From Collinsella aerofaciens (GTDB lineage Bacteria > Actinomycetota > Coriobacteriia > Coriobacteriales > Coriobacteriaceae), in the NCBI RefSeq assembly GCF_028206995.1, contig NZ_JAQLFL010000014.1:1-40485 (forward strand): a stretch of DNA of 40,485 nucleotides. Reading direction: 5' to 3'. This document shows positions 3,777 to 39,993 of the stretch, in pieces. Positions within the stretch are counted from its first letter, which is position 1; every line of letters starts with the position of its first letter. The notes beneath the pieces are model-generated. The model was given only the letters and a program-made list of their open reading frames with translations. It was not told the origin of the DNA and did not search any database. A program made the position numbers and the translations under genes.

Positions 3777-3787
3777 ACTCTCCGCTG

Positions 3788-5352: not shown

Positions 5353-5355
5353 CAT

Positions 5356-5387: not shown

Positions 5388-5406
5388 ACATAGTTCCCGC
5401 TATCTA

Positions 5407-8400: not shown

Positions 8401-8487
8401 GGAGCCGAACTGCTCGCGCGACATCAGGGCCGTCTTCACGAGCTCGGGGTCGAATCCGCAATCGCACGGATCTTTATAAGCTGCCAT
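5407..8487 (-). CDS. cas9: Cas9 endonuclease, subtype II-C (1026 residues)
   Basis: This is the RNA-guided DNA endonuclease. RuvC-I is LVLGIDMEIAGIGV (D39). The arginine-rich bridge helix is at about 78-105 (ARRQARSQRRNIARRAARKK). RuvC-II is RVEVAKEL (E535), HNH is EKGYVEIDHILPFSR (D620, H621, N644) and RuvC-III is DDRHYAVDAAVIAAC (H771, D774). All catalytic residues are present, so it should be active. The length and HNH wording match short II-C enzymes such as that of Neisseria meningitidis. I chose the ATG at 8487, seven bases after AGGA; a GTG at 8493 is too close to that site. The 5' leader carries the shared UACCCCAAG hairpin (8508-8526). Unusually for the family, cas9 is convergent to cas1-cas2. 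Confidence 0.97.
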   Translation of the reverse strand: MAAYKDPCDCGFDPELVKTALMSREQFGSKPRKLVLGIDMEIAGIGVCLMDELNQEIVLMATHLFDCPWNPKNKTSLASARRQARSQRRNIARRAARKKHIRKILMAHSVIPEGASSEWFSVRKGEQDNIQLRVKGLSEILSSRELARVLYGFASRRGYIDHGKADNDKDAGKVKKALKENAEIMDANGYETFAQYLITQPKSRNRQDDYIHCVDIDMVVDEVHAIFRHQRELGNGLATESLEGEYLAALRWLTDTTRRDGIIYSKVGYCTYLGEPIKRGPKSSISSEMVRAYQTLANVKIEHIGSVATQISPLTRNQIVHDLFKVSKNPKPLKWSQLRKKLALADTDTFAGVRQSDEAKDVCVKVPAWNALCSTLHDLNPVLLNRLRDDTDLADAVCAAATFASSSEAFATRIAELTDGLSKEDVDALLELPYGSKLFTGYGSTSLKALQMLRDAFEDTNINRLYDAEVATGLYDARKALSAKRNVTDDGLLKPYSSYSPICTNPVVLRSCARLRRIINSVIRHYGLPDTIRVEVAKELKRTKHEKELVDDGNKYNKREKEKAVDDIVEYLGLSDANQVRGRDIDKVRLYNEQGGKDPYTGQGIDFGRMLTEKGYVEIDHILPFSRSCDNARTNKVLVLTKSNRDKSNRTPYEWMTSGEPTAPNWDEFCIRMDVWASGKEPKHYYSSKLAKLKEDSFANNIDSFISRNLNDTRYMSKDVAKWLADCLPFPEDGRKHVFCVSGAATAFMRGVWRIGILDDNGKKNREDDRHYAVDAAVIAACTPSIVKDIALISEEHATNRDADRLLNGSLPYPEYKDQVKAWIPCVVPTYSPTRTATGALFKDNTFSYKGIDGKGKDLIKKKKGALGPCTTAWKDGKGTARAYDEQYGLLAVYDESAARWLLDPLYYIDVQKRKAEEPFIRKFSKDLSIDYWEKIPLTGNEPSLLLKRGVVLIQDGIVGRYYGYDIAHNSVKLSSSGKVSFQKTGPLAAEKFPTPTKWTDELKIMQEDCLGLCWLELLTERANHC
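5838..5865 (-). ncRNA. Candidate tracrRNA anti-repeat nested in cas9
   Basis: On the minus strand AAGGA-TGGCA, eight bases, then GCTAGGGC(T) is complementary to the CRISPR repeat parts (A)GCCCTAGC, TGCCA and TCCTT in the right order. This gives an 8-9 bp lower stem, an internal loop (GGAG against AGGGTACT) and a roughly 10 bp upper stem. That is the architecture of the Neisseria crRNA:tracrRNA duplex. It lies in the cas9 sense strand near the 3' end, over codons for DGKGTARAY, with an AGG arginine codon. I found no other anti-repeat of comparable quality in intergenic DNA. No clear terminator follows, so it is a candidate only. Confidence 0.45.
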
Positions 8488-8507
8488 ATTCACTTCCTGT
8501 CTTCTTG

Positions 8508-11775: not shown

Positions 11776-13392
11776 TTAATGGTGCTTAGATTTTTGAATC
11801 TCGGCAGCGTCCTCTTGCTGCTGTCCGGAATTGGACTTCGTAGTCGAATTCGTTGGGTTGTTCGCAGCGAGACCGCCAAAACCTTTCTCATCGCGTATAT
11901 CTGCCATGGCTTCGAGGATTTCCTCCTCAGTCATCTTCTTTCGGCGGCTATCCCCGACAGTAGAAGGTTTGGGATATTCGATGCCTAGCGAATTTGCTAG
12001 AGAAGATGGATACTCTACTCCCATACCGTGACGAATCTCATCGCGGGCAGCGGAGTCATTCTGCTCTATGGTCGATTTTAATCGACCCATCAATTCGGCA
12101 CCTTCACGCGTACACGGGATGGCTGCTTTTGCGATCGCTAGTGCTGCGGCACGCTCGTCATCGTTCATCCAGCGCTCACGGCTCGGTAGACTTTGAGATC
12201 TTTGGCGTTGGCTTGTGTGCTTTTCCGCAATCACCTGTTCTATCGATGTCGCAGCATACTGCTTACCGAGCGTTGAGCCTTTTACTTTGCGTGATGCGGG
12301 GTCGCTCGGATGATGGTAGACAAGATCTCCTTCGCGGTTGTAATTAACCTTGATGCCGAGTTCGCCCAACTTTGACGCAAAATCCGCAGGCCCCTTGGAA
12401 ATTCTCACCGCTACATCAACTCGATCGCGAATGTCGTCCTTCCAAGACCAGCCTTCGCGGGTTTCAATCTGCCGCTCCGCCATGGTTTCAGAATCGCCGA
12501 ATCCATGCGGGACAACAAGGCGCATCACTCGCCCGTCTTCAGTTCTCATGGTCGTGTACGAAAAACCGGAGACTTTGTCGGAAGCGATCGGGTCACCCTC
12601 GCCGACCTTCGGCTGTGAACTAGGAGCAGCTCCGACCGTAAATGTCTCGGGTATCAGCTTGTCGATCGGATGACGTTTATCCAGCAGGTCTTGCATCGCC
12701 TCGCTGAAGTCCTCGATTTGTGCGCCCTTTGCCTCGTTCGCGAGGACTCTATCGAGAGCCGACATAGCACGATCGAGTCTCTTGCCGCGGGAGACTTTCA
12801 GACCCTTTTCGTCCATCTCGGCCTGAGTGTAGGACTTGCCATCAGTTGCAAACGCATGCCAGCCTCGTTCGAGCGACATGGTTTGCAGGTCAGCTCGCAT
12901 TGCCTGGACGACCTTGGTGGTGCGCAGACCAGAGATGCGTCGTTTCGTCTCGAGCTCGGTGTTGTTGATGACGAGATGGGCATGCAGGATGCCCTGCTTG
13001 CCTTGGACTCCGCGAGCCTTATTGTCATCGTGGTAGGCAATGGCCACCTCGAAGCGGCCGATGCCCTGTCCTTCCGGACCGCGCGAGTCAAACCATTTGG
13101 ATGCCCACTCGTTCACGAAGTCGCGGAAGTCATCGAGTTCAACGCCGTCGTCCTTTTCGTCCAATGAGATGATGAAGTGTTCATAGGTGCGGACCTTGGT
13201 GTCCTTTTTGACGGGAACGTTGTTGCCGAAAATCTCACGGGTCCTGTCCATGACTTTCGCCCAGTCCCTCCCCTTCCAATCGCGATCTGTCAGGTTGAGG
13301 AAGTCTTTGTCGAGGGCGCGGTCGTTTTTGAAGAGGTAGTAGCGTATCCACTTGGCAGAACTATGTCCAGAGAGAATCTTCATGTAGGTCAT
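11776..13392 (-). CDS. Relaxase / mobilization nuclease, MOBP-like
   Basis: This 538-residue protein nicks and attaches to the transfer origin. The N-terminal domain has a Tyr-rich start (KWIRYYLFKNDR), the strand RTYEHFIISLDEKD, and the metal-binding histidine motif QGILHAHLVINNTE, which is the HxH motif III of MOBP and related relaxases. Residues from about 180 on are charged and helical, with a probable accessory region (PADFASKLGELGIKVNYN; DLVYHHPS) seen in other Gram-positive relaxases. The C-terminus is low complexity. It overlaps mobC by four bases (ATGA). With no coupling protein or type IV secretion genes here, the element is mobilizable as far as this window shows. Confidence 0.9.
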   Translation of the reverse strand: MTYMKILSGHSSAKWIRYYLFKNDRALDKDFLNLTDRDWKGRDWAKVMDRTREIFGNNVPVKKDTKVRTYEHFIISLDEKDDGVELDDFRDFVNEWASKWFDSRGPEGQGIGRFEVAIAYHDDNKARGVQGKQGILHAHLVINNTELETKRRISGLRTTKVVQAMRADLQTMSLERGWHAFATDGKSYTQAEMDEKGLKVSRGKRLDRAMSALDRVLANEAKGAQIEDFSEAMQDLLDKRHPIDKLIPETFTVGAAPSSQPKVGEGDPIASDKVSGFSYTTMRTEDGRVMRLVVPHGFGDSETMAERQIETREGWSWKDDIRDRVDVAVRISKGPADFASKLGELGIKVNYNREGDLVYHHPSDPASRKVKGSTLGKQYAATSIEQVIAEKHTSQRQRSQSLPSRERWMNDDERAAALAIAKAAIPCTREGAELMGRLKSTIEQNDSAARDEIRHGMGVEYPSSLANSLGIEYPKPSTVGDSRRKKMTEEEILEAMADIRDEKGFGGLAANNPTNSTTKSNSGQQQEDAAEIQKSKHH

Positions 13393-14219
13393 ACGTGGCC
13401 TTCTTCCTCACTTTGGTCAGGACGCGATGAACCGTGCTTTTTACCGCGGATACGGCGGCGACGTTCTGGTTCGTATTTATTGATAGGGGCCTCAGATTGG
13501 GCGAGACCGACGGCAGTCAGGTTTACGGACGGTTTGGCGGACAGGGCCTCGACATCTTCGGCGAGAGTCTTGAGGCGATCGTAGATCGCCTTGTTCTGTT
13601 TCGAGAGACGTTCGTAGAGCCCAACGATTTCTGTGCGCTCATCTTGCGAGAGGGCGCGATGGTTGCCGTACTTCTTGATGATGCGGTTGAGGGCGCGAAC
13701 CGCCTGATTGTAGTTCACGCCGATGGCGCGAACCTCGTTGGAGATGGATTCGAGCATGCTGTCGGTGATGGTCTGCACGGCCAAACTTTCCGTTTGGTCG
13801 ACAGAGTGCATGAGGGCGAGGTCTGGGCCGAGCGGACGGGCGAGGGATTCGGTGCCCGGTGTGGCGCGGCGGATGGATGTCAAGTCGAGTGTGACGGGGA
13901 GTGCAACTAGGGTGCGGAGGTAGTCGCTTCGACTGGCGTTAAGGGCGGCGGCGCGGGCATCGAGGGCGGTAAGGTCGGCGGTCGGGAGGCGGACTGTGAT
14001 GCGGCGGGTGGCGGACTGACCGCCGTTTGGGGGCGGCAAAATGTCTGACAGGCTGGCTGGCGGCGTTTCGCACGGCTGGTTGGGCTGCGCCTGGGGCGAC
14101 ATGGGAGTCGGCGTTTGGGGCTGCAAAATGTCAGACATTTGGGATATGCGGGGGCTAATGTCTGACAAATTGGGCGTGGCGGTCTGGGGTTCATTTTCAT
14201 CTGGCGAAATGTCTGACAT
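13389..14219 (-). CDS. mobC: MobC-like relaxosome accessory protein with repeated SDI motifs
   Basis: This 276-residue protein starts at 14219 with AAGGAG seven bases upstream; a further upstream frame is open but lacks support. Residues from about 90 form a ribbon-helix-helix-like DNA-binding part (RRITVRLPTADLTALDARAA, NASRSDYLRTLV). Near residue 175 comes the MobC hallmark EVRAIGVNYNQAVRALNRII, followed by a coiled coil. The first 90 residues are Pro/Thr/Gln rich and repeat SDI four times. Each SDI is encoded by a TGTCNGACA palindrome, so the DNA sites lie inside the gene. It is expected to bind the transfer origin and assist the relaxase. Confidence 0.88.
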   Translation of the reverse strand: MSDISPDENEPQTATPNLSDISPRISQMSDILQPQTPTPMSPQAQPNQPCETPPASLSDILPPPNGGQSATRRITVRLPTADLTALDARAAALNASRSDYLRTLVALPVTLDLTSIRRATPGTESLARPLGPDLALMHSVDQTESLAVQTITDSMLESISNEVRAIGVNYNQAVRALNRIIKKYGNHRALSQDERTEIVGLYERLSKQNKAIYDRLKTLAEDVEALSAKPSVNLTAVGLAQSEAPINKYEPERRRRIRGKKHGSSRPDQSEEEGHV

Positions 14220-14748
14220 TTCGTATCTCCTTACATACGGCCGATAGTGAGCTTCGCGAGCAAGCCGTCCGTCAAGCGGATCTAAATGTCTGACAGCCTG
14301 TCGGACATTTCGCTTGGCGGGAGCGAGCGGAGCGAAGCGATTACAGGCCGCTAGCGACCCCAGCTGCGGCTTTGCCGCAGGTTCAATGTCTGACATTTCT
14401 AATGTCTGACGTTGAACGCAGCTGGCGTGCAAAATGGCCTTTATGGGTAGTTTGGGGCACGTATTTTGGCTGGGCTGGGTGTTGCCGCAACGGCATCCAC
14501 AATTGGCAAGGCCGTTTTGCACCTGCCGCCTGTCCGTAGGGCAGGCGGCCGCGCCGCGGGGTGATTCGGCTCTACTCGGGGCGATTTTTGGCCGCGCGAT
14601 TGATTATTCCGATACCTGTGACGTGGTTTTGTGAAGTCGGGAAATGTCTGACAGGTTGCTATCGGTCGATGGGTCAGTGTCCGACAATTCCCCATCTGTG
14701 GAACGCAAATGTCTGACAGACTATAGGAATTCTAATGAATGTCCGACA
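14042..14748. repeat. Twelve TGTCNGACA palindromes (iteron or operator array)
   Basis: Perfect sites start at 14042, 14129, 14159, 14210, 14287, 14299, 14387, 14645, 14678, 14710 and 14740, plus one with a final G at 14403. Four lie within the 5' part of mobC, including one over its start codon, and the rest upstream. Many are extended to AATGTCNGACATT. The clustering suggests a dimeric protein binding site array acting in mobC autoregulation, transfer origin assembly or replication control. Confidence 0.85.
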
Positions 14749-14760: not shown

Positions 14761-16105
14761 AGAAATAACGTTTATAAAGGGGATTAACGCGATGATTCAG
14801 AGCACTCCTTGGGAGCGTTATCGGTGGGCTGATTTGGTGGTTCGGAACTTGAATCCGATGCGCCTCTTCCATATCCGATGAACAGTTTTGAGTCTGCTAA
14901 ATTAGTTTTTAAAGTGTTTGCAGTGAGTCCACTGACTTTAATTTACGATCGACACGACATCAAAAATGAATTGATAGCAAACTATTTGTAAGGGAAAACT
15001 TATTGCGGCGATTTAATCTGAGCGATGATTCGGTTGTTTTTCGGATGCGAAATATAAAAGTGCAAATGCCTCGCGATGTAATTGGAAAGCCGTTGACCGT
15101 TTTCCGTGCAACCTGAAATGGAAGTGCGGGCTGCTTTCAATCGCTACCGATTGACAATTCGAAAGCCCGTTTCGGCGTTTTGCAAAGTGCAATCGACCGT
15201 AAAAATCAGATAGAGAACGGCAGAATTGAAACGAAAATTACCTTTGCAGGTCTGTCGACTTGTATTCAAATAGGTATCAGTCGGAAGTCGTTGCGGTAAA
15301 TATACCGTCAGATGTAAGGGAAACCGACCGCGCTAAATTCTTTTTATTACACGGCGCTAAAGTTAATTTCAGTCAATCCATGCCGTCGCCTGCACCTCTC
15401 GAAAATAAGAATGAAAACAAATAGCGATACGGCACAGCTCCACTAAAGGCGCTGTGGAAGTTCTACCAATTGCTAAATTCTTGCTTGGAATAATCCCTGT
15501 AGCCTTAAATTGAAAACTGAATCGAGCGCACAATAGGCATTAGGATCACTTTGGATTCGTAAAATCAGTCGGCAAACATGTAAACGAAACTGAATCCTTA
15601 GGCGTCCTGCTTCGTCTTTTTGGACATGATCAGTATCCCAACTGAGCATCTAAATGGCAATAGCAAAAGGCAATCCGTATGAAAGGATGATTAGATTCCG
15701 TTTGATTCGTAGAAATCAAACGGGCTGAATTGCCGAAATATCTTTTCTGATTGAGTGTCGCAATCCAGTTGAGACTGTCCTTCTACTTGAGCGAAGGATG
15801 AGAATAATAACAAGCAGCGATACCGCGGAGCGCCATTAAAGGCACTCCGCATGCCTTTCAATCTGATTCCCGGTTTGATTTTGAATGTTGTCGTGACGAT
15901 GATTTGGGGTCATAACATATTCCGATTCGTAAGACTCTCGGTCTAAAAACAACTTGCACGCTCTGCAAGTATGGACTTGCAAAACCAAAATGGAGCCCTT
16001 TGTAAAAGTCTTCGCATATGACTCGATTGGTAATTGCGAAGGTCGTCGAGCTTGTTAGGAACTGGAAATCAGGCGATGAGGCCGATGAAAATCATTTCTA
16101 AAGTA
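14761..16105. other. AT-rich non-coding region with diverged hairpin repeats
   Basis: There is no open frame of 60 codons on either strand over about 1.3 kb. Three hairpins share the sequence GATTCGTA: near 15556, the perfect CCGTTTGATT/AATCAAACGG at 15697-15722, and near 15923. Two related hairpins near 15444 and 15824 share an AGCGATAC..C flank and a TAAAGGC loop side. GTAAGGGAAA occurs at about 14988 and 15315. A short frame near 14791 begins MIQSTPWERYRWADLVVRN and stops after 29 codons, perhaps a gene remnant. The region could be a replication origin or decayed DNA. Confidence 0.5.
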
Positions 16106-18209: not shown

Positions 18210-18980
18210 CTAGACGTATGCGAAATCGACAACGGTCTTGCCGTCGCTCATGATTTGCTTTGAAGCCGCCAGGGCCGCAAGGTTATCGATTCTGTCTTGC
18301 TTGGGCAACGTCCCCAAACGAGTCATGGGATGGTATGGCATCGGATTGGGCTTGCTTGCGAGCAGTTCGGAGGTGCGGGCCTCGATCTCGTCGGCGCAAT
18401 CATCCAGGAAGTTCCATGCATCGTCTACCGGCAGCATCCTCTCGCGCTTCGGGTTCTTCCAGTCTTTGACAGACCGACCCGTAATGCCCAAAGCCATCGC
18501 AATCTCTGACGTCGGCACTCCCAAGATATCAGCCTGGGCGGTAAACTCGGCCTTCGGATCGATATCGGGGAAGTCATCTAGGTGTTCCTCAATCCACTCA
18601 TCATCACGGCATGCATAGACAAACGAGTACTCCATATCCTTCGCATCGAGCTGATTGGCAACCAAACTGCTTGCGAGATTGTAAAGGCCCACCGGTTCGG
18701 TCTCGGGCAGGTCTTCGTCTCGATACCACGGGAGAATGTATTGACCGAACTTCTCGTGGGATTCATTCGCCTCATTCAGGCATTGCATCGTAAGGTCACC
18801 GAGCTTCTCGGTTTGGCCATACACCCAGTCAAAGGCATCCTTGACCGGTACGCAATCGAGCTCGGGGTCGAGCCACTTACGTACGCTCGACACACGGATA
18901 TCGAGACCACGGGCGAGATCTTCCGGCTTGAGCCATAGGTTATCGAGCTGGCTCTGCATTGAACACTTGAAATCGAACAT
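18210..18980 (-). CDS. Putative regulator with two related HTH domains
   Basis: This 257-residue protein starts at 18980, with AAGGAAC before ATG TTC. Two segments about 155 residues apart share a pattern. The first is LKPEDLARGLDIRVSSVRKW, then CVPVKDAFDWV. The second is VPTSEIAMALGITGRSVKDW, then MLPVDDAWNFL. Each is a helix-turn-helix followed by a conserved (V/L)PV.DA(F/W) helix, so the protein looks like an internal duplication able to bind a bipartite site. The linker is acidic. No family name is known to me. A role in controlling the small-gene array to its right is possible but unproven. Confidence 0.65.
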   Translation of the reverse strand: MFDFKCSMQSQLDNLWLKPEDLARGLDIRVSSVRKWLDPELDCVPVKDAFDWVYGQTEKLGDLTMQCLNEANESHEKFGQYILPWYRDEDLPETEPVGLYNLASSLVANQLDAKDMEYSFVYACRDDEWIEEHLDDFPDIDPKAEFTAQADILGVPTSEIAMALGITGRSVKDWKNPKRERMLPVDDAWNFLDDCADEIEARTSELLASKPNPMPYHPMTRLGTLPKQDRIDNLAALAASKQIMSDGKTVVDFAYV

Positions 18981-19089
18981 GTTTGTTCCTTCCTGTAGCG
19001 GGGTTGCATGACTCACCTAAGTCATGCCTTTTGGTTGATTCTACCAGTAACATGGAGCATAATCCCCATTCAAATTCACGCTATAGACC

Positions 19090-19160: not shown

Positions 19161-19877
19161 TTAGGCGCAGGTTGCAATACGGTCGCCTTGGCCGAAGCCG
19201 TAGCCGTCTGCCCTGCCGGCATCTCCGATCGACTTGTCGGAGGAAACGGTAATGGACTGGCGCTTCATCTTCTTGAGCTTCAGCTCCTCGTCCATGTAGC
19301 GCATGACGCTCTCGGGTACCACAATCGCCAGAGCCATAGTCTCGTCATGCTCGAGCTGCTCGCGATAGGAGCTCTCGAGACCCTCGATGAACCCGAGGCA
19401 ATAGCTGTTCTTCACACCCGCGCGCCGCCCGATTTTGGTTCCATACTCCTCAGCACGCCTGTCACAGAACTTCTTGAAGCAGTTCTCGATCGCATGCTTG
19501 GTGGCACGGAAACATCCGGACGCGACCACGGCATCCTGGCTTTCGCCGACGAAAACGAAGCGGGTGCCGGTCACGGGGTGGCGACCGGTCCAATAGTCAT
19601 AGGCGCCGTAGCTCGTCTGCATATAGTAACGGCAACGGTAGTTCTTCGCGATAACGTACGCGAGGAGCTTGACCCACTCGGGGACGCGCTTACCGAGTTC
19701 CTCGGCGGCCTCGTTGACCTCGGGGGCATCGTCGGTGAGGTCGATATCCTCGATGGTCATATTGTTCGCCGCGAGGAGGCGCTGGAGGGCAAGGGATGCC
19801 GCCCTGGCTTCGCCCTCGGAGGTCGCGCCGTCAATCATGGCGAGAATCTTCTTGAGCTTGGAATCGATGGGGTTCAT
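19161..19877 (-). CDS. DUF2786 domain protein
   Basis: This 238-residue protein starts at ATG 19877, after AAGGGAG in the shared leader. The N-terminus (SKLKKILAMIDGATSEGEAR, AASLALQRLLAANNMTIEDI) is the DUF2786 helical pair, recognised by its K-I-LA and A.QRLLA..NM elements. Residues 65-200 match the C-terminal domain that often follows DUF2786 in phage and plasmid proteins (VAKNYRCRYY-like; FVGESQDAVVASGCF; SYCLGFIEGL). The biochemical role is unknown. It is the leftmost member of the array of units with the common promoter-hairpin leader. Confidence 0.75.
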   Translation of the reverse strand: MNPIDSKLKKILAMIDGATSEGEARAASLALQRLLAANNMTIEDIDLTDDAPEVNEAAEELGKRVPEWVKLLAYVIAKNYRCRYYMQTSYGAYDYWTGRHPVTGTRFVFVGESQDAVVASGCFRATKHAIENCFKKFCDRRAEEYGTKIGRRAGVKNSYCLGFIEGLESSYREQLEHDETMALAIVVPESVMRYMDEELKLKKMKRQSITVSSDKSIGDAGRADGYGFGQGDRIATCA

Positions 19878-19898
19878 GTGGTATCTCCCTTCCGGTTT

Positions 19899-19945
19899 GC
19901 GGAACGCCTCTCGTTCCGCTTGTTGAGATATATTATAGTTGGATT
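19899..19945 (-). promoter_or_regulatory. Shared promoter-hairpin leader, copy 1
   Basis: Minus-strand TATAAT (19937-19932), with TTGTGG 17 bases upstream. The transcript begins near hairpin GCGGAACG/CGTTCCGC (19899-19919), then AAGGGAGATACC and the ATG. It drives the DUF2786 gene. Confidence 0.85.
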
Positions 19946-19982
19946 GAATTATGTCCACAAGATCCGCTTGGATAAATTGGCA

Positions 19983-20010
19983 GAAAAAGGCGACCATTGC
20001 CAATCGCCTC
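19983..20010 (-). terminator. Terminator of the 20051 gene
   Basis: On the minus strand AGGCGATTGG..CCATGGTCGCCT-like arms are followed by TTTTTCTG. Most units of the array end in a similar GGCGATC-type hairpin. Confidence 0.65.
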
Positions 20011-20050
20011 GACTCGCTGCCGACGGGAACAATCCCTGTTGCCGCCCGAA

Positions 20051-20647
20051 CTACTTCGATTCGAACTGGTATACACCGTTTTCGTAATCGGCGAGGAAGC
20101 GGCTCTTATCGACAAAATGCCCGTCCTTATTGCAGCACATGATGTGCGTCTTGATGTTGCCCGGCTGAAGTTCAATGCAAAGGTCGCTGCTTAACTCGCT
20201 CCCTTTGACATAGAGAACGGGATCTTTCTTGCTCATGTTCGTTCCGACGAAAATATCTTCTGGTAGTGCCCAATTGATAGCAAGAAATACATCCTTACCG
20301 TTGATGTTCATTCCATCTAGGGTATCGATATTGTCATGGATGAGCTCGACTACGATTTCGATATATGTATTGACCGTCTCATCGAGTAAGTCCCTGCTGC
20401 GTCGATATACTTGCGTGCAAGACGCCTCGGCTTCGTCCGCGATCCTCTCGAGTTCGGGTAGGCTTCGCTCCGCTTCTGCGGAATACTCCTCCATCGCCCT
20501 CATGACCTCCCGAAGCGCCTGGCACGATGCCTCGTGTGCTTTTTCCTTCTCCTCCTCGAACGGGAGGAGTGCCTTCATCTGGCCCTCGTGCTTCTCGACG
20601 AGTTGCTTGAAGCGTTCACCATCGGTCTTCAACTTGATTGCATTCAT
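20051..20647 (-). CDS. Coiled-coil protein of unknown function
   Basis: This 198-residue protein starts at ATG 20647, preceded by GGAAGGTG. Residues 10-100 are a long Glu/Lys/Ala-rich helix (EEEKEKAHEASCQALREVMR, AEERSLPELERIADEAEAS-like composition) likely to form a coiled coil. The C-terminal 80 residues are strand-rich (DVFLAINWALPEDIFVGTNM; LCIELQPGNIKTHIMCCNKD). No family is recognised. The unit has its own shared leader upstream and terminator downstream. Confidence 0.7.
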   Translation of the reverse strand: MNAIKLKTDGERFKQLVEKHEGQMKALLPFEEEKEKAHEASCQALREVMRAMEEYSAEAERSLPELERIADEAEASCTQVYRRSRDLLDETVNTYIEIVVELIHDNIDTLDGMNINGKDVFLAINWALPEDIFVGTNMSKKDPVLYVKGSELSSDLCIELQPGNIKTHIMCCNKDGHFVDKSRFLADYENGVYQFESK

Positions 20648-20671
20648 TGTCGTCACCTTCCACTAGGGTCT

Positions 20672-20735
20672 GCGGGACGACTATCGCCCCGCTTGTCCGC
20701 ATATAGTATAGTTGAATATGGGTCGGGATGCAAGA
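20672..20735 (-). promoter_or_regulatory. Shared promoter-hairpin leader, copy 2
   Basis: TTGCAT, 17 bases, TATACT on the minus strand, then hairpin GCGGGGCG/CGTCCCGC (20672-20692) with a G-U pair. It drives the 20051 gene. Confidence 0.85.
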
Positions 20736-20756
20736 TCTAGCTGGGAAAATACGCAA

Positions 20757-20795
20757 GAAATAAGGCAATCGTCGCCGATCGCCCTATTTGAATCT
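20757..20795 (-). terminator. Terminator of the 20828 gene
   Basis: On the minus strand AGGGCGATCGG pairs with CGATTGCCTT and is followed by ATTTCTTG. Confidence 0.65.
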
Positions 20796-20827
20796 TCGGT
20801 ATGGGATATTCGGCTCGCGTGACCGTT

Positions 20828-21130
20828 TCAGCGCCTCACCGGCACCAAAACGGTCTTGGACAGCTCGGTCAACTTGATATAGGCATAAGGGTCCCAATCG
20901 TCCTTTCCGTCCTTGCAAGCGAGCAGCTTCTTGAGCCGAGTTTGGGCTTTTGCCTGTACCTCGCGCCTGTTGTATCCATAGGCATCGCAAAGGTTCCCGA
21001 CTATATCGAGAATCTCGCGCCTCTCGTTCGCACGGTTCTCGAGGTCTTGAAGCATTTCGTTCTCCAACTCGATCCCGTAGAGCTCATCACCGAGAAGTTT
21101 TACCAGCGCGTCCTTCTTAAGAACCAGCAT
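20828..21130 (-). CDS. Unknown 100-residue helical protein
   Basis: The start at 21130 (MLVLKKDALVKLLGDELYGI) follows AAAGGTGG by ten bases; upstream in-frame starts are possible. It is predicted mostly helical and charged (LENRANERREILDIVGNLCD; VQAKAQTRLKKLLACKDGKD). No family is recognised. It lies 80 bases after the 21211 gene with no terminator or shared leader between, so the two are probably one transcript from leader copy 3. Confidence 0.6.
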   Translation of the reverse strand: MLVLKKDALVKLLGDELYGIELENEMLQDLENRANERREILDIVGNLCDAYGYNRREVQAKAQTRLKKLLACKDGKDDWDPYAYIKLTELSKTVLVPVRR

Positions 21131-21210
21131 CGGTCTAGAACCACCTTTCTTTTGCATGGTAAACATCCCATGAGCGCGCCTGCATCGTCCATTGCACACG
21201 GGATTGAGAA

Positions 21211-21411
21211 CTAGTACAGGTCTGCCGCGCGGAATTGGGACTCGGCGAGCCAGTAACCGGCTGTATGGCCGAGTTCCTCGGCGGCCTGGCTGGCGATTTG
21301 CATGGCGCTGTGTTTGGCCGCCTTACATGCCGCTTGATTGCCCTCGTCGGTGGCGTACCAACCGTCGGCGATGAAGGTTGCAATCTTCTCGATATAATCC
21401 TGCCTCTGCAT
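21211..21411 (-). CDS. Small unknown protein of the array
   Basis: This 66-residue protein starts at ATG 21411 behind AAGGAG in the shared leader. The sequence (MQRQDYIEKIATFIADGWYA, then QAACKAAKHSAMQIASQAAE) is a chain of amphipathic helices. No family is recognised. It is the first gene of a likely pair with the 20828 gene. Confidence 0.65.
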   Translation of the reverse strand: MQRQDYIEKIATFIADGWYATDEGNQAACKAAKHSAMQIASQAAEELGHTAGYWLAESQFRAADLY

Positions 21412-21434
21412 TTTAGGGAACTCCTTACGGGTCT

Positions 21435-21495
21435 GCGGAACGCTTACCGTTCCGCTTGTACGCATATAGCATAGTTGAATAACGAACCGGAAGCA
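21435..21495 (-). promoter_or_regulatory. Shared promoter-hairpin leader, copy 3
   Basis: TTGCTT, 17 bases, TATGCT, then hairpin GCGGAACG/CGTTCCGC (21435-21455). The -10 is weaker than in the other copies. It drives 21211. Confidence 0.85.
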
Positions 21496-21513
21496 AGATC
21501 CGTTTGGGAAAAT

Positions 21514-21545
21514 GAAAGAGGCGATCTCGCGACCGCCTTTGGTTG
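21514..21545 (-). terminator. Terminator of the 21551 gene
   Basis: Minus-strand AAAGGCGGTCG/CGATCGCCT-type stem followed by CTTTC. It belongs to the hairpin type found after most units here. Confidence 0.6.
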
Positions 21546-21550
21546 GTGGG

Positions 21551-21934
21551 CTACTCTCCGAAGATAGGCCAGTTGTCGATGTTCTCGGTGTCGTAGCCCG
21601 TATATACGTCGTATTCATCGGTTACGTAATACTCGAAGATATCGGAATATCCAAACTTTTCCATATCAGGCTTGATCCATTCCATGATCTCATCTACGCA
21701 GGGAATATGCCTAGCTTTGATAACTATGCTGTAGTCCAGATCGCAACTATCGGCAAAGCCGACTACAATGAAATAAGCCCCATTGTAGGAAACTGGCTCG
21801 ACAAAATTACCCTGCAGATACAAACCGCGTGTACCCTTCTTTCGCTGCTCGGATAAATAGCTCTCCGCCTCGTTCCAGTCCAAGAACTGGAAGCCGTTGA
21901 TCTGCTCGCCTTTACCGTTGACCAAAGTAATCAT
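21551..21934 (-). CDS. Acidic unknown protein of the array
   Basis: This 127-residue protein starts with ATG 21934 after AAGGGAG. It is rich in aromatic and acidic residues (YFIVVGFADSCDLDYSIVIK; YSDIFEYYVTDEYDVYTGYD). No motif, signal peptide or membrane helix is seen. It is a single-gene unit with the shared leader and its own terminator. Small acidic proteins in such arrays are often inhibitors of host defence enzymes, which is only a possibility here. Confidence 0.7.
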   Translation of the reverse strand: MITLVNGKGEQINGFQFLDWNEAESYLSEQRKKGTRGLYLQGNFVEPVSYNGAYFIVVGFADSCDLDYSIVIKARHIPCVDEIMEWIKPDMEKFGYSDIFEYYVTDEYDVYTGYDTENIDNWPIFGE

Positions 21935-21955
21935 GGGGTATCTCCCTTCGGGTCT

Positions 21956-22018
21956 GCGGGACGCATCTCATCCCGCTTGTCTGCATATAGTATAGTTGAA
22001 TATGGGACAGGATGCAAG
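21956..22018 (-). promoter_or_regulatory. Shared promoter-hairpin leader, copy 4
   Basis: TTGCAT, 17 bases, TATACT, then hairpin GCGGGATG/CGTCCCGC (21956-21976) with a G-U pair. It drives 21551. Confidence 0.88.
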
Positions 22019-22034
22019 ATCTAGCTAGGTAAAT

Positions 22035-22070
22035 GGCGTGAAAAAGGCAATCGTTCGGCCGCTCTTTCAT
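22035..22070 (-). terminator. Terminator of the 22072 gene
   Basis: Minus-strand AAAGAGCGGCCG..CGATTGCCTTTTTC stem and T tail directly after the stop. Confidence 0.6.
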
Positions 22071-22071
22071 G

Positions 22072-22368
22072 CTATTGCTCCCGATCCACCAAGGAAGACA
22101 GCACGACCTTTCGAGCCTCGCCTTTCAACTCCCTTTTGGCTATAGCTCGGAAGTCCTCGGTATAGTCGGGGTCACCCTCACCTCGCCACTCGTCCGGCAC
22201 CTCATGCCAAGCGCTTTCGTATTCATCCGATGTGCAATCATCCACGTAGGAATAGAAGCCATTCGTATCCTTCAATGCACGCATGGTCTCATTGAGGTCT
22301 GCATCTTCTGCCAGATTCAGTTCAAAGAACCACGTCCTGGCCTCGGTGTACATCACGGTCTTCTTCAT
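22072..22368 (-). CDS. Unknown protein, paralogue of 24469-24762
   Basis: This 98-residue protein shares its plan with the gene at 24469. Both begin MKK, have TEAR(T/S)W(F/Y)FEL(N/D), then a G(F) segment with Y..(D), a DEYES(A/V)W(H/D)EV core, an (R/K)ELEGEAR-type stretch and end in a basic-acidic tail. Both are acidic and single-domain. Function unknown. Its leader differs from the ten shared ones: two large palindromes at 22424-22463 precede it, suggesting separate control. Confidence 0.75.
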   Translation of the reverse strand: MKKTVMYTEARTWFFELNLAEDADLNETMRALKDTNGFYSYVDDCTSDEYESAWHEVPDEWRGEGDPDYTEDFRAIAKRELKGEARKVVLSSLVDREQ

Positions 22369-22423
22369 TTTCGATTCCTCTCAGTCGGCTGTATAGTTCT
22401 TTACGTTTGAGGCGTGTCCTCAA

Positions 22424-22463
22424 CTAATGCAATTACATTAGTTCTCAAATGCAATTGCATTAG
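22424..22463. promoter_or_regulatory. Two tandem palindromic operator-like sites
   Basis: CTAATGCAATTACATTAG (22424-22441) and AATGCAATTGCATT (22449-22462) are palindromes with centres about 23 bases apart, two helical turns. They lie in the leader region of the 22072 gene and are likely sites of a dimeric regulator. Confidence 0.6.
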
Positions 22464-22609
22464 TTTCGGTGAGTATGGCGATTAGAAAGGAATACTCAGG
22501 CTAGCCTAACTCAGCAATCACGTTTCATGCGATTACACCCGATCGCGTCTAGCAGTCTTAGATGGTCCCTTGTTGCCGGTTCGCCCTTCGGCAAGTTGAA
22601 AAGCATAAA

Positions 22610-22642
22610 AATCGGGGCGGCATCCTCACCGCCCCGCGCGTA
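22610..22642 (-). terminator. Terminator of the 22643 gene
   Basis: GGGGCGG..CCGCCCC stem followed on the minus strand by GATTTTTATG. Confidence 0.75.
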
Positions 22643-22897
22643 CTAGCAATACACGGGCTTGACGTTCCATTTCCAGGAAACGGCGCCGCCGTAATAGCAG
22701 TCCTTTCCTCCTAAATAAACGTCAACATCCTGCCCGCAATCATCGATATAGGACGCAAGACCCGATTCATCGACTAGGGTATGGATCCTGCAAAGCATGA
22801 ATTCACGGGCATCCTCGTACTCCTCAAAGAGCTCGACCGGCGTGAGTTTGGCATCCTCGACATGAACGCCGACTACCGCCCAGTTGTATGCAGTCAT
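22643..22897 (-). CDS. Small unknown protein of the array
   Basis: This 84-residue protein starts MTAYNWAVVGVHVEDAKLTP and ends in a strand-rich part (VDVYLGGKDCYYGGAVSWKW). Four cysteines are spread without a clear metal motif. It is acidic in its first two thirds. No family is recognised. A complete unit: shared leader, ribosome site AAAGGAG, one gene, terminator. Confidence 0.7.
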   Translation of the reverse strand: MTAYNWAVVGVHVEDAKLTPVELFEEYEDAREFMLCRIHTLVDESGLASYIDDCGQDVDVYLGGKDCYYGGAVSWKWNVKPVYC

Positions 22898-22918
22898 AGG
22901 ATATCTCCTTTCGGGTTT

Positions 22919-22982
22919 GCGGAACGCCTATCGTTCCGCTTGTTGCATATAGTATAGTTGGATATGATGCAGGATACAAGAT
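22919..22982 (-). promoter_or_regulatory. Shared promoter-hairpin leader, copy 5
   Basis: TTGTAT, 17 bases, TATACT, then hairpin GCGGAACG/CGTTCCGC (22919-22939). It drives 22643. Confidence 0.87.
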
Positions 22983-23002
22983 CAGATAAGGAAAATAGTA
23001 TG

Positions 23003-23034
23003 AAAAGGGCATCGGATAAACCGATGCCCTTTGG
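23003..23034 (-). terminator. Terminator of the 23041 gene
   Basis: AAGGGCATCGG/CCGATGCCCTT stem followed on the minus strand by TTCATAC. Confidence 0.65.
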
Positions 23035-23040
23035 CTGACA

Positions 23041-23280
23041 TTAGTTGTCAAACATATCGCGGTAGTCCGCATCGCTCCACTCGCCTATCGAATCGTCGGT
23101 CTCACCATCCGTCTCGACCTCGGTGCTAAGGGAATACTCGCTCCCATTCTCGAAGTCATTCCAGAAGCAGTCGGTGTCGATTATCCGGCCCAAGCGCTCC
23201 AGGGCATCGTTCTCGTCCTCGGCCTCGACAACGAACAGACCTTCCCTGTGCTCGGTAACCTTAATCGTAAACTTCTTCAT
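23041..23280 (-). CDS. Small acidic protein of the array
   Basis: This 79-residue protein begins MKKFTIKVTEHREGLFVVEA, a beta-alpha-beta-like start, continues EDENDALERLGRIIDTDCFW and ends in a very acidic stretch (TEVETDGETDDSIGEWSDAD). The first half resembles the small DpnD/PcfM-type or DUF-like strand-helix modules in which xxDA..R.G..I repeats occur, but I cannot place it. It is a single-gene unit with shared leader and terminator. Confidence 0.7.
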   Translation of the reverse strand: MKKFTIKVTEHREGLFVVEAEDENDALERLGRIIDTDCFWNDFENGSEYSLSTEVETDGETDDSIGEWSDADYRDMFDN

Positions 23281-23301
23281 GGGGTATCTCCCTTCGGGTT
23301 T

Positions 23302-23365
23302 GCGGGACGCCATTCGTTCCGCTTGTTGACATATAGTATAGTTGAATAGCGAGCAGGATGCAAGA
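23302..23365 (-). promoter_or_regulatory. Shared promoter-hairpin leader, copy 6
   Basis: TTGCAT, 17 bases, TATACT, then hairpin GCGGAACG/CGTCCCGC (23302-23322). It drives 23041. Confidence 0.88.
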
Positions 23366-23384
23366 TCTAATTGGGAGACCGGCA

Positions 23385-23416
23385 TGAAAAAAGGCGATCT
23401 CTCGACCGCCTTTAAT
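23385..23416 (-). terminator. Terminator of the 23428 gene
   Basis: AAAGGCGGTCG/CGATCGCCTTT-type stem with a TTTTTTC tail on the minus strand. Confidence 0.7.
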
Positions 23417-23427
23417 ACGAAATGAAG

Positions 23428-23841
23428 CTATTCCAGACTCCAAACGCGCTTCTCACCGAACTTTTCGAGCACCTTCTCGGCCAAGTCATCCCTTACGTAA
23501 TCGAGTACGTCGCGGATCTCCGAATCATGATATCCAGGCTGCTGGCTGGTCTGATACTCGTAGCACTGGATGCAGCCGTACTTCTCTCCAAGGGTGAACG
23601 GCTTCCCGTCCTGCTTCTGCGTGAGCTTGAACTCATGGGCGCGGATATGCTTGCCTTGGTGCTCGCTGACGGCAGCGTAGTTGGCATCGAGGAGCATCTG
23701 TCCGACAATCTCACCGCAAGTCGCGGGGTCGTACTTGATGCCCGTCTTTTCGTCCTTCAAGCCAGCGGGCTCGAAGTCGCAGTCTGCCATTGCGGCAACG
23801 ATTGCGGAAATCGTAAGATCGGAAACGACGTAGCAGCTCAT
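23428..23841 (-). CDS. Unknown 137-residue protein of the array
   Basis: It starts at ATG 23841 with GGAGG seven bases upstream. The N-terminal half is helical (MSCYVVSDLTISAIVAAMAD; CGEIVGQMLLDANYAAVSEH) and the C-terminal half mixed (CIQCYEYQTSQQPGYHDSEI). No family is recognised and no membrane segment is seen. It is a single-gene unit with shared leader and terminator. Confidence 0.7.
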   Translation of the reverse strand: MSCYVVSDLTISAIVAAMADCDFEPAGLKDEKTGIKYDPATCGEIVGQMLLDANYAAVSEHQGKHIRAHEFKLTQKQDGKPFTLGEKYGCIQCYEYQTSQQPGYHDSEIRDVLDYVRDDLAEKVLEKFGEKRVWSLE

Positions 23842-23863
23842 ATGAGTACCTCCAAAAGGGTTT

Positions 23864-23927
23864 GCGGGACGCCTATCGTTCCGCTTGTTGACATATAGTA
23901 TAGTTGAATAGCGAGCAGGATGCAAGA
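23864..23927 (-). promoter_or_regulatory. Shared promoter-hairpin leader, copy 7
   Basis: TTGCAT, 17 bases, TATACT, then hairpin GCGGAACG/CGTCCCGC (23864-23884). It drives 23428. Confidence 0.88.
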
Positions 23928-23944
23928 CCTACCATGGAAAATAA

Positions 23945-23978
23945 CTGAAAACGGACGGCCTTTCAGCCGTCCGTCTAC
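23945..23978 (-). terminator. Terminator of the array ssb
   Basis: GACGGACGGCTG/CAGCCGTCCG-type stem with TTTTC on the minus strand. Confidence 0.65.
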
Positions 23979-23984
23979 TGGTTC

Positions 23985-24322
23985 CTACTGATCTCGGCGA
24001 CGAGCCATGAGCTCGATATCCTCGACAATCACCTCGAGTTTGGTACGGTGCTGACCGTCCTTCTCCCACTGGCTGAAGCGGAGCTTGCCGTCTACGGCAA
24101 TCTTGTCGCCCTTCGCCATGTGCTTGGAGATGCCCTCGCCTCGAGTACCGAACATGGTGCAGTCAATGAAGTTCGGGCAATCCTCCACTCGCCGGTCGCG
24201 GAATTGCGGCGTCGATCGTTGACGGCAAGGCCGAACGAAAGGACGGGAGTCCCGCCCGCAGTCATGCGAACCTCGGGGTCACGGGTGATGTTGCCAGAAA
24301 GCATAACGTGATTGATAGACAT
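23985..24322 (-). pseudogene. ssb: Single-stranded DNA-binding protein gene with a one-base frameshift
   Basis: The first frame reads MSINHVMLSGNITRDPEVRM, then FGLAVNDRRRNSATGEW, the usual SSB OB-fold start. From about 24186 the match moves to another frame: EDCPNFIDCTMFGTRGEGIS, then DKIAVDGKLRFSQWEKDGQH and VEDIELMARR. Adding one G after GAGTGG restores a continuous SSB of about 112 residues. So the gene carries a single-base deletion, or the read has an error. The usual acidic D-D-D-I-P-F tail is absent even in the restored frame. It sits in a unit with the shared leader. The intact ssb at 37371 could supply the function. Confidence 0.85.
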
Positions 24323-24345
24323 GGGATGTTCCTTCCTCTAGGGAT

Positions 24346-24410
24346 GCAGGATGCCTTTCATCCCGCTTGTTAGCATATAGTATAGTTGGATATAGACTGA
24401 AATTCAAGAT
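24346..24410 (-). promoter_or_regulatory. Shared promoter-hairpin leader, copy 8
   Basis: TTGAAT, 17 bases, TATACT, then hairpin GCGGGATG/CATCCTGC (24346-24366) with a G-U pair. It drives the ssb. Confidence 0.85.
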
Positions 24411-24468
24411 TTATCTTGGAAAACGGGACGAAATAAAGCGGCATGGAAGCCATTGAACAAAGTGCGAT

Positions 24469-24762
24469 CTATTCGCTTTCGCGCAGCGATTTCAAAACTA
24501 TGTCACGGGCCTCCCCCTCGAGTTCCCTATCTGCTACCCTTCGAAAATAGTCGGTAGCATGATCGCCGCACGTACGCTTTTCGTCTGCTGAAACTTCATC
24601 CCAGACGCTTTCATATTCATCCTCGGCGCGGTCAGTTAGATAATAATTAAAACCCTCGGTTCCAACCAATGCCGATAGAGCCTTCTCGACCTGCGCCCCA
24701 TCGTCAATATCGAGTTCGAAGTACCAAGAACGAGTTTCAGTGAACTTAAAGACTTTCTTCAT
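24469..24762 (-). CDS. Unknown protein, paralogue of 22072-22368
   Basis: This 97-residue protein reads MKKVFKFTETRSWYFELDID at the N-terminus, TEGFNYYLTDRAEDEYESVW in the middle and ADRELEGEARDIVLKSLRES at the end. It aligns along its whole length with the gene at 22072. Acidic, no known domain. It has no shared leader of its own. It follows 24829-25149 by 66 bases, so it may be third in a transcript starting at leader copy 9. Confidence 0.72.
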   Translation of the reverse strand: MKKVFKFTETRSWYFELDIDDGAQVEKALSALVGTEGFNYYLTDRAEDEYESVWDEVSADEKRTCGDHATDYFRRVADRELEGEARDIVLKSLRESE

Positions 24763-24828
24763 GGCTGTTTCCTTTCCGATATCAGGTGTTCATGGAGTTG
24801 AATGAGCATCCACTAAACCTGATGCACT

Positions 24829-25149
24829 TTAAAACTCCTGTAGCTGCCATAGGTCAATTAGGGTGTCCAAGACGGCGATTTGTTCTTCCAGAATATCCAA
24901 GTCATGCTCCACCTTCTGATATATATACTCCCCAAAGTCACGGTCTTTGGAGTGCAACCTGACCTCAAGCAAAAGTCCAACTCTCTCCATCGCCATGCGC
25001 ATCCGCTCGTAGTTCACAAGGATGCGATCTCGAAAAACGCCCTCCTCGGGCTCCTCAAGCGCCTTAGTCTTTTTAATCATGCGAAGCGCCTCGTGATTTA
25101 AGCCCCGAACCCTGGCAATCGTCTCAATCTCCTTGCGATTCTGCTGCAT
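24829..25149 (-). CDS. Small coiled-coil protein
   Basis: This 106-residue protein starts at the second of two adjacent ATGs, five bases after AAAGGAGG. It is almost entirely helical (NRKEIETIARVRGLNHEALR; VEHDLDILEEQIAVLDTLID), probably a helical hairpin. No family is recognised. A perfect hairpin CCGTATGTGC/GCACATACGG (25164-25187) sits between it and the 25198 gene, just before its ribosome site. It may tune translation within one transcript. Confidence 0.65.
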   Translation of the reverse strand: MQQNRKEIETIARVRGLNHEALRMIKKTKALEEPEEGVFRDRILVNYERMRMAMERVGLLLEVRLHSKDRDFGEYIYQKVEHDLDILEEQIAVLDTLIDLWQLQEF

Positions 25150-25163
25150 CATGTCCTCCTTTC

Positions 25164-25187
25164 AGCCGTATGTGCCAAAGCACATAC
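25164..25187 (-). promoter_or_regulatory. Intercistronic hairpin
   Basis: CCGTATGTGC, loop CAAA, GCACATACGG: a perfect 10 bp stem with no T tail, ending a few bases before the ribosome site of 24829. It is more likely a processing or translation element than a terminator. Confidence 0.5.
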
Positions 25188-25197
25188 GGCCATCAAT

Positions 25198-25413
25198 CTA
25201 CTCGGCGGTTCCGAATATCAAGGCACCGACGCCGGCGGTGTAGTGGGAATCGAACCAACGCCAAACTCCCTCGATACGAGGCTCCCCCTTCTTGAAAACG
25301 AACCAGTCCGTCCCCAGAACACCATCGGGCTGCTCGGGGTCGTCGTAGTCGATTGGAACGTCTGCCAGCTCGCGCCACTTAAGCTCGAGGAATCGATCCG
25401 TATAGTCACTCAT
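25198..25413 (-). CDS. Small acidic protein of the array
   Basis: This 71-residue protein (MSDYTDRFLELKWRELADVP, then GTDWFVFKKGEPRIEGVWRW) has six tryptophans or more and an acidic N-terminal half. No family is recognised. It has the shared leader and appears to head a three-gene transcript with 24829 and 24469. Confidence 0.68.
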   Translation of the reverse strand: MSDYTDRFLELKWRELADVPIDYDDPEQPDGVLGTDWFVFKKGEPRIEGVWRWFDSHYTAGVGALIFGTAE

Positions 25414-25434
25414 GGTGTATCTCCCTTCGGGTTT

Positions 25435-25500
25435 GCGGGATGCCTTTCATCCCGCTTGTTGGTATATAGTATAGTTGTATATGGGGAGGCATGCAAGATC
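25435..25500 (-). promoter_or_regulatory. Shared promoter-hairpin leader, copy 9
   Basis: TTGCAT, 17 bases, TATACT, then perfect hairpin GCGGGATG/CATCCCGC (25435-25455). It drives 25198. Confidence 0.88.
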
Positions 25501-25516
25501 TAGCTGGGAAAATAGC

Positions 25517-25549
25517 ACGAAAAAAGGCGATCTTGCGACCGCCTTTTGG
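25517..25549 (-). terminator. Terminator of the 25556 gene
   Basis: AAAGGCGGTCG/CGATCGCCTTTT stem and T tail on the minus strand. Confidence 0.7.
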
Positions 25550-25555
25550 TTGAAT

Positions 25556-25903
25556 CTAGTTGTTCTGCTTCAAGACCTCTACTGCAGCGTCGATAGTGTG
25601 TGAAACATAATTGCCGTAGCCCGTCATTTTGTAGCCGGAGAAGTCATGCGCGGGAAGACGGTCGAGCAACATGGCGAGGCATTCAAGGTTCTCGATAGCC
25701 TCGGCGCGATTCATACGCCTCACGTGCTCAAATCGGGCCCTCAGGTCATTTTCGCTCTCCATGGCATCAAGTTGAGTCCGCATGGATTCAAGGCTCTTCT
25801 CCCCGATGAGCGTATCAATATCCCTGCCCTCATCGGACTGGCTTGCAAAGGCTTTGGCGGCCTGCTCGCAATCCTCCAAGGCTTCCTCAAGGCTCATATC
25901 CAT
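25556..25903 (-). CDS. Unknown helical protein of the array
   Basis: This 115-residue protein begins MDMSLEEALEDCEQAAKAFA behind AAAGGACGAG. It is acidic and helical throughout (LESMRTQLDAMESENDLRAR; EAIENLECLAMLLDRLPAHD). No family is recognised. It lacks the shared hairpin leader and must use its own promoter in 25905-25960 or read-through from 25996. Confidence 0.65.
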   Translation of the reverse strand: MDMSLEEALEDCEQAAKAFASQSDEGRDIDTLIGEKSLESMRTQLDAMESENDLRARFEHVRRMNRAEAIENLECLAMLLDRLPAHDFSGYKMTGYGNYVSHTIDAAVEVLKQNN

Positions 25904-25960
25904 CTCGTCCTTTGCAGTTTCCTTTCTCTCTAAGGTATAACGGTCTTAAAATCGGTAAAT

Positions 25961-25988
25961 CGGGAGGGGTGAAGTTACACCCCTCCCG
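25961..25988 (-). terminator. Terminator of the 25996 gene
   Basis: CGGGAGGGGTG/CACCCCTCCCG, an 11 bp perfect stem, followed on the minus strand by ATTTACCGATTTT. Confidence 0.75.
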
Positions 25989-25995
25989 GACGTGA

Positions 25996-26205
25996 TTAAA
26001 GCGAGTAGCGGTATGCCATAACCACCTGGCGTGCGCACTGGATCCCGTGGCTGGCAAGAAGGCAGGCGGCTGGCACCACGATGCAATTCAGATACAGGTA
26101 GTAGAACTGACAGAACCAAACGGCGAAAATGAACGCCGACAGCCCGATGAGCGCCATGACGATCCTCGGAAAGTAAAAGAAGAATGTATCCAGTTTGCGA
26201 TTCAT
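25996..26205 (-). CDS. Small membrane protein
   Basis: This 69-residue protein has a basic N-terminus (MNRKLDTFFFYFPR) and two hydrophobic helices (IVMALIGLSAFIFAVWFCQF and YLNCIVVPAACLLASHGI), ending in a short basic tail. It is probably an inner-membrane hairpin with both ends in the cytoplasm. No family is recognised. It is the rightmost unit with the shared leader. Confidence 0.7.
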   Translation of the reverse strand: MNRKLDTFFFYFPRIVMALIGLSAFIFAVWFCQFYYLYLNCIVVPAACLLASHGIQCARQVVMAYRYSL

Positions 26206-26227
26206 GGGGTATCTCCCTTCCGGTTTG

Positions 26228-26290
26228 CGGAACGCCATCCGTTCCGCTTGTCGACATATATTATAGTTGTATATGTGGCGGGATGCAAGA
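26228..26290 (-). promoter_or_regulatory. Shared promoter-hairpin leader, copy 10
   Basis: TTGCAT, 17 bases, TATAAT, then hairpin GCGGAACG/CGTTCCGC (26228-26248). The -10 matches consensus. It drives 25996. Confidence 0.88.
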
Positions 26291-26321
26291 TCAAAATGAG
26301 AATAATAACAAAGAGATTTAC

Positions 26322-39555: not shown

Positions 39556-39785
39556 GGAACTCCCTCCCCTCGTAAATAAACAATAAGCCCCGGCTGCACC
39601 CGTTTTGATGGTGCCGATTCCGATGTGCCTGAAAACCGCCGAAACGGTCCAGATGCCGTCCCGTTTGGGAGGCAAGTCCGCCCATCTTGCATCACCGGGG
39701 CCCGTATTCGCAGCGTCGACTGAGACGCCGGCCGGTGGGTATCCCCTTTTCTCCTTTACTATTCCGTTTTCACGTACGACGCTAC

Positions 39786-39929: not shown

Positions 39930-39993
39930 CTACGGATGCCCACCTCTCGACACTCCGCAGGGTGAGCATCGAGAGGTAAACAGCCACAGGGAA

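Follow-up and report, generated by a model that had tools for sequence, protein, structure and literature searches.

The DNA considered here, hereafter the window, comprises 40,485 nucleotides of Collinsella aerofaciens (assembly GCF_028206995.1, contig NZ_JAQLFL010000014.1, positions 1 to 40,485) and carries, at 19882-26294 and always on the minus strand, an array of ten copies of a control module of about 85 bases, each placed in front of one to three small genes. Read 5' to 3', the module is made of a sigma70-like promoter, an 8-bp hairpin with a 5-base loop, a Shine-Dalgarno sequence and an ATG. That such a standardised promoter-hairpin module, with unit-wise turnover of its genes on a mobile element, is real and informative is very probable. 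The array is perhaps a kit of swappable genes switched as one set, which may assist the element in establishing itself in a new cell; the preferred reading, with a probability of roughly 45%, is that one Collinsella mobile element has a multi-operon regulon, whose hairpin would be read by the element's own tandem Aca2-fold protein and whose genes would form an establishment or counter-defence set.

Positions 8840-40485 of the window are collinear with an 86,831-base contig of Collinsella aerofaciens D31t1_170403_C12 (genome G001; 74-83% identity in the main blocks), and this relative bears eight full modules (C1 to C8) and a degenerate one (C3b). On the minus strand, the module reads TCTTGCAT, 17 bases, TATACT, a few bases, ACAAGCGGRAYG-N5-CRTYCCGC and, 21-24 bases further on, an ATG with its Shine-Dalgarno sequence; the layout from hairpin to ATG was computed for eight modules and established by inspection for M6 and M7. 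Placed from the promoter spacing, the start of the transcript would lie about five bases 5' of the stem, so that the RNA would begin within a few bases of the hairpin. The core pattern, allowing up to 2 mismatches, is matched nine times against 0.01 expected from shuffles, and a covariance model (R1), partly built from these same ten modules, scores all of them at 86.6-104 bits. The original prediction of ten identical modules with a TTGCAT-17-TATACT promoter holds for the number of copies and for the 17-base spacing; "identical" is too strong, as mean column identity is 83% among the ten (80% among 17 modules of both elements), and the hexamers are exact in only part of the copies (TTGCAT in 6/10, TATACT in 7/10). 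The 8-5-8 geometry of the hairpin recurs in all 19 copies of the two elements, with near-invariant outer arm bases.

Compensating change in the stem of the modules is real. Among the 17 modules, 97.1% of stem cells pair, against a shuffled mean of 92.3% and with none of 500 shuffles equalling the observed value; once positional partners are dropped, the 12 non-orthologous modules pair in 97.9% of cells (94.4% shuffled; reached by 1 of 500 shuffles), RNAalifold finds the same stem in them, and the compensating pairs announced by the original prediction are thereby borne out. Across the 19 copies, stem pair 5 is A-T in 9, G-C in 8 and A-C in 2, and stem pair 7 is C-G in 12, T-A in 4 and T-G in 3; because C8 has G-C at pair 5 together with C-G at pair 7, the two pairs do not represent two fixed haplotypes. 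Between M1 and its positional partner C1, one stem pair is changed on both sides, a double compensating change. Departures from the eight pairs of the window stems consist of one A-C mismatch in each of M6 and M7 and one G-U in each of M2, M4 and M8. Hairpins per se are not rare, stems of at least 8 pairs preceding 4 of 36 non-module genes, about the 11% seen in random 60-mers; it is thus the conservation of the module hairpin that carries the weight.

Six of the ten window modules have a positional partner in the relative (M1-C1, M3-C2, M4-C3, M8-C4, M9-C6 and M10-C7), while M2, M5, M6 and M7 occur with their first genes in the window only, and C5, C8 and the degenerate C3b in the relative only. 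The M2 unit is simply absent from the relative, M5 to M7, each with its first gene, occupy the place of its single 200-residue gene behind C3b, and C5 with its gene is inserted there between the unit of the single-stranded DNA-binding protein (SSB) and the M9/C6 unit. Module-plus-gene units turn over between relatives as wholes. A cassette consists of a module, its one to three small genes and usually a terminator, each cassette having its own standard control region; such cassettes come, go and are exchanged whole, most simply via recombination between the repeated control regions. A recent tandem duplication without conserved pairing, the alternative raised in the original prediction, is rejected: stem pairing lies above shuffles and the module-headed genes are unrelated to one another. 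In an all-against-all BLASTP of the array proteins, the only relatives are partners across the two elements and the pair M5b/M9c, neither of which is the first gene of its unit; a 20-residue match between M5a and M5b at E 0.003 is taken as chance.

On the genomes searched, the module system belongs to the mobile element and not to the host. With strict filters, under which weak matches are lost, the module was found in 1 of 43 genus genomes, 1 of 65 family genomes and 2 of 396 class genomes, the second class genome (G117) giving one match at E 0.001 that, by inspection of the locus (L084), is without the 8-bp stem. The notion of a cassette system stands for the common control region on different genes and for the gain and loss of units, and fails for a wider regulon of the host in related bacteria, which is rejected on the genus and family counts. 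Plasmid and phage collections gave no match to the module. A pattern scan of genome contigs returned 15 stretches, with the stem kept in one only (L010); the stem is not kept in five pattern-matched stretches in viral contigs, and protein and pattern scans of viral contigs yielded no relative.

The array holds 15 genes of 66-238 residues under its ten modules, in agreement with the predicted one to three per module. From the highest coordinates downwards, each module is given with its hairpin, whose 5' start on the minus strand is the higher of the two positions. M10 (26210-26294; hairpin 26227-26247) heads genes 25996-26205 and 25556-25903; M9 (25418-25502; hairpin 25435-25455), whose partner in the relative has a broken stem, heads genes 25198-25413, 24829-25152 and 24469-24762; M8 (24329-24413; hairpin 24346-24366) heads an SSB gene (23985-24322) that is frameshifted in the window into open reading frames (ORFs) 24092-24322 and 23985-24188 and whose frame is intact in the relative, a sequencing error being possible. 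M7 (23847-23931; hairpin 23864-23884) heads gene 23428-23841, M6 (23285-23369; hairpin 23302-23322) gene 23041-23280, and M5 (22902-22985; hairpin 22919-22939) gene 22643-22897, the second gene of the M5 unit, 22072-22368, lying 3' of a terminator-like hairpin that follows the first. An AT-rich near-palindrome at 22422-22465 (18-nt arms, 94% complementary), 5' of that second gene, resembles no module. M4 (21939-22023; hairpin 21956-21976) heads gene 21551-21934; M3 (21418-21502; hairpin 21435-21455) heads genes 21211-21411 and 20828-21130; M2 (20655-20739; hairpin 20672-20692) heads gene 20051-20647; and M1 (19882-19966; hairpin 19899-19919) heads gene 19161-19877 (DUF7168/DUF2786, phrog_421).

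Only the M1 gene (DUF7168, phrog_421) and the broken M8 SSB match a protein family at the Pfam cut-off or with a strong E-value. PADLOC gave no match for the nine array proteins and the candidate regulator (described below) that were tried, and NCBIfam none above cut-off for the eight array proteins tried; no named anti-CRISPR protein (Acr) is found among the Pfam, PHROGs, PADLOC and NCBIfam matches, these libraries not being Acr collections and not every gene having been run in each. As predicted, a terminator of its own is usual, a rule-based scan of one stop per unit (two for M5) placing one after 8 of 11 stops and none after M9, M5b and M1. The genes are mostly acidic, as claimed, with an isoelectric point below 5.5 in 11 of 16 array ORFs, yet this is hardly distinctive, since 16 of 30 other window genes are similar, and acidity is rejected as a mark of DNA mimicry.

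Array genes also live without the module: M1 homologues occur in 5 of the 65 family genomes, and those of G004 and G011 (56% identity) have a different hairpin leader. Among the same 65 genomes, a search with the M7 protein found nothing and one with M9c matched only G001. M1 homologues were also seen near a region of 8-base-period repeats on another element in two genomes of the Collinsella family (L100, 7901-9623, and L101, 1715-3450), with an SSB homologue nearby in L100. In metagenome data, proteins P0116 and P0122 join part of the M7 protein to a segment of SSB or of the M9c/M5b family, either through recombination between cassettes or through assembly errors, and on inspection the protein fragments P0118 and P0123 seem to continue through module-like sequence on one side or the other of an M7 homologue.

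Just downstream of the array, the gene at 18210-18980 on the minus strand encodes a protein of 256 residues built of two homologous halves and conserved in the relative (86% identity). It has a helix-turn-helix (HTH), and each half is predicted to adopt the Aca2/YdiL fold; the protein would thus contain the fold of the anti-CRISPR repressor Aca2 twice, as a predicted tandem duplicate. The Pfam family Aca2/YdiL (DUF1870) is not among the seven families listed for it at E <=1. Its own leader contains a hairpin, GCATGACT-N6-AGTCATGC (19006-19027, minus strand), whose arms are retained and whose loop differs in the relative; this hairpin has the same layout as the module hairpin and another sequence. 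Regulator and module both occur in G001 only among the 65 family genomes; of the 297 order genomes searched, six matched the regulator, full-length in G001 only, the other five being short HTH matches (E 2.8e-7 to 4.5e-6), and 90 relatives appear in public protein data. Aca2 itself reportedly binds RNA as well as DNA, a finding said to come from Birkholz et al. in Nature in 2024.

It is tentatively suggested, at somewhat less than even odds, that this tandem Aca2-fold protein controls the modules. The palindrome would most likely be its recognition site, as a DNA operator, an RNA stem-loop, or both. In an established host, the cassettes would be held down by the repressor; DNA entering a repressor-free cell would then give a burst of cassette expression, acting as an establishment or counter-defence set. 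An establishment role of the array is a plausible proposal that still falls a little short of an even chance. The fullest version, in which a single-chain tandem Aca2-like protein controls at least ten transcription units through one palindrome serving as both DNA operator and RNA stem-loop, and inserted genes join a two-level, transfer-triggered counter-defence programme, is unlikely in its entirety.

The element is probably a plasmid or a similar conjugative or mobilisable element, a status suggested by ParA, DnaB, a relaxase and the lack of tRNA genes. The window, which matches the Rfam family Collinsella-1, encodes a relaxase, a MobC/ribbon-helix-helix (RHH)-like protein, ParA, two SSB genes and a reverse transcriptase; the relative's contig additionally has DnaB, ArdC and a T2SSF protein. 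Neither the window nor the contig of the relative yielded a tRNA gene, and a circularity check of the contig revealed no terminal overlap. The relaxase gene lies at 11776-13392 and the MobC/RHH-like gene, which no module precedes, at 13389-14522, both on the minus strand. Inside and before the latter, 11 TGTCNGACA palindromes at 14042-14748 (10 in the corresponding stretch of the relative) form a cluster that is a candidate transfer-origin, iteron or replication region. Between MobC and the array, non-coding hairpins at 15420-15862 (GCGGAGTGCC...GGCGCTCCGC, then TTGTTATTATTC) are conserved as two copies in the relative. Type II CRISPR-Cas genes (Cas9 of 1028 residues, Cas1) lie at 3450-8493, in the window part not collinear with the relative, a Cas2-like ORF and CRISPR repeats there being judged from the ORF list only. 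At 38329-40467, and at 78901-79925 in the relative (G001:C2), a reverse transcriptase and the small, helical-looking ORF next to it resemble a diversity-generating retroelement; when a template-like stretch of the relative is compared with a nearby copy (79781-79925), template adenines account for 22 of the 25 mismatches.

Several observations weigh against the preferred reading: the fold match of the regulator is of middling strength, its link to the module is weak because the two are known together from one genome plus the window only, stem pairs are broken by the A-C common to M6 and M7, twice in C6 and once in C3b, and kinship among modules weakens the shuffle test of pairing, as the tool itself warns. 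The cassettes could instead be constitutive and have no dedicated regulator, a strong promoter being combined with a 5'-terminal hairpin that protects the mRNA or frees the Shine-Dalgarno sequence. This is possible, if rather doubtful: the hairpin lies at the 5' end predicted for the mRNA, its pairs covary, and sequence-unrelated hairpin leaders precede the regulator gene and the M1 homologues on another element, but a generic protective hairpin needs neither an 8-5-8 geometry in 19 of 19 copies nor near-invariant outer arms, although common descent may explain part of both. It is less probable still that the palindrome acts purely as a double-stranded DNA operator, bound either by the tandem Aca2-fold protein or by some other element-encoded protein, with the RNA hairpin as a by-product. 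A palindrome right after the start site, an adjacent HTH protein and the similar size of the two sites, 21 bp for the module against the 20-bp inverted repeat given for Aca2 in the part of PMC8434428 available, all agree with such an operator, whereas pairing within modules exceeds what conservation of half-sites alone would give and M1/C1 show a matched double change; counts of G-U and A-C departures are not decisive between an RNA and a DNA role.

Two further explanations are far less probable. If the repeat were mainly a recombination site for cassette capture, as in integrons, with a secondary promoter role, unit-wise gain and loss and the chimeric proteins P0116 and P0122, which join parts of array genes, would be accounted for; the chimeras, however, are joined inside genes and not at modules, and conservation is centred on the promoter, the stem and the Shine-Dalgarno sequence. 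Least probable of all are Frpo-like single-strand promoters firing from the entering strand. Seen from its own 3' neighbours, the array does lie beyond the relaxase and MobC genes, with its genes oriented towards the candidate transfer origin and SSB present, but none of eight single-stranded DNA folds, made for both strands of 4 of the 10 modules, places the -35 as well as the -10 in a stem, and Frpo identity is rejected on this structure, as seen in the four modules folded.

The array works like EGeRS2 and acr-aca systems but is a member of neither, as it lacks defining features of both. EGeRS2 is the establishment regulon of the Bacillus plasmid p576 and other clade II plasmids of the pLS20 family; as far as the available part of PMC8708921 describes it, it shares with the array a multi-copy, promoter-bearing control sequence on one element, placed before operons of small, variable, mostly unknown genes that are swapped between relatives, and an element-encoded repressor, here a candidate. 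By comparison with the ten Collinsella copies and their palindrome after the -10, EGeRS2 in that account has four copies with direct heptamers before the -35, an RHH repressor (here an HTH protein) with the same site before its own gene (here another leader hairpin), and ardC in the regulon (PMC8708921); no ardC stands behind a module here. Its dual heptamer TTATCCCnnTTATCCC has three matches, with 3 mismatches each and all outside the modules, against 2.67 expected. EGeRS1 of pLS20 likewise places a repeated structured leader directly before the Shine-Dalgarno sites of variable establishment operons, but in the same partial account it extends over 420-751 bp and is devoid of a constitutive sigma-A promoter, unlike the module of about 85 bp with its clear promoter-like sequence (PMC8708921).

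With acr-aca systems, as portrayed in the accessible portions of PMC8434428 and PMC9410906, the array has in common an HTH regulator of predicted Aca2 fold, a palindrome at the promoter and small unknown genes; it differs in its tandem single-chain protein, separate regulator gene, many transcription units and the absence of a named acr among the library matches of the genes scanned, and its palindrome follows the -10 instead of lying within the core promoter. A promoter repeated in front of small genes, SSB included, close to a transfer origin recalls the Frpo/ssi promoters and leading-region anti-defence islands of PMC11541004, in the extract of that source, whose promoter hexamers in a single-strand stem are not matched in the four modules folded. 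The SAS/ESAS of cluster K mycobacteriophages are also multi-copy inverted-repeat motifs just before the starts of many small unknown genes, with another sequence, 17-bp repeats, a phage setting and, in the part of PMC3203893 covered, no promoter claim; their 13-bp start-codon motif GGGATAGGAGCCC has one match, at chance level (2 mismatches; 1.19 expected). No description of such a Collinsella array was found in openly licensed PubMed Central papers.

If the fullest version is true, the one-operon acr-aca switch would become an open, element-wide regulon, and every module-headed gene would be a candidate for inhibiting host defence, in a genus with Cas9. If the preferred reading is true, the module would serve as a sequence tag listing establishment and counter-defence genes on a gut plasmid family where homology lists almost none. 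It would also offer a simple system in which to ask how one small palindrome can act on both DNA and RNA, and by what means plasmids hold numerous exchangeable genes under common control.

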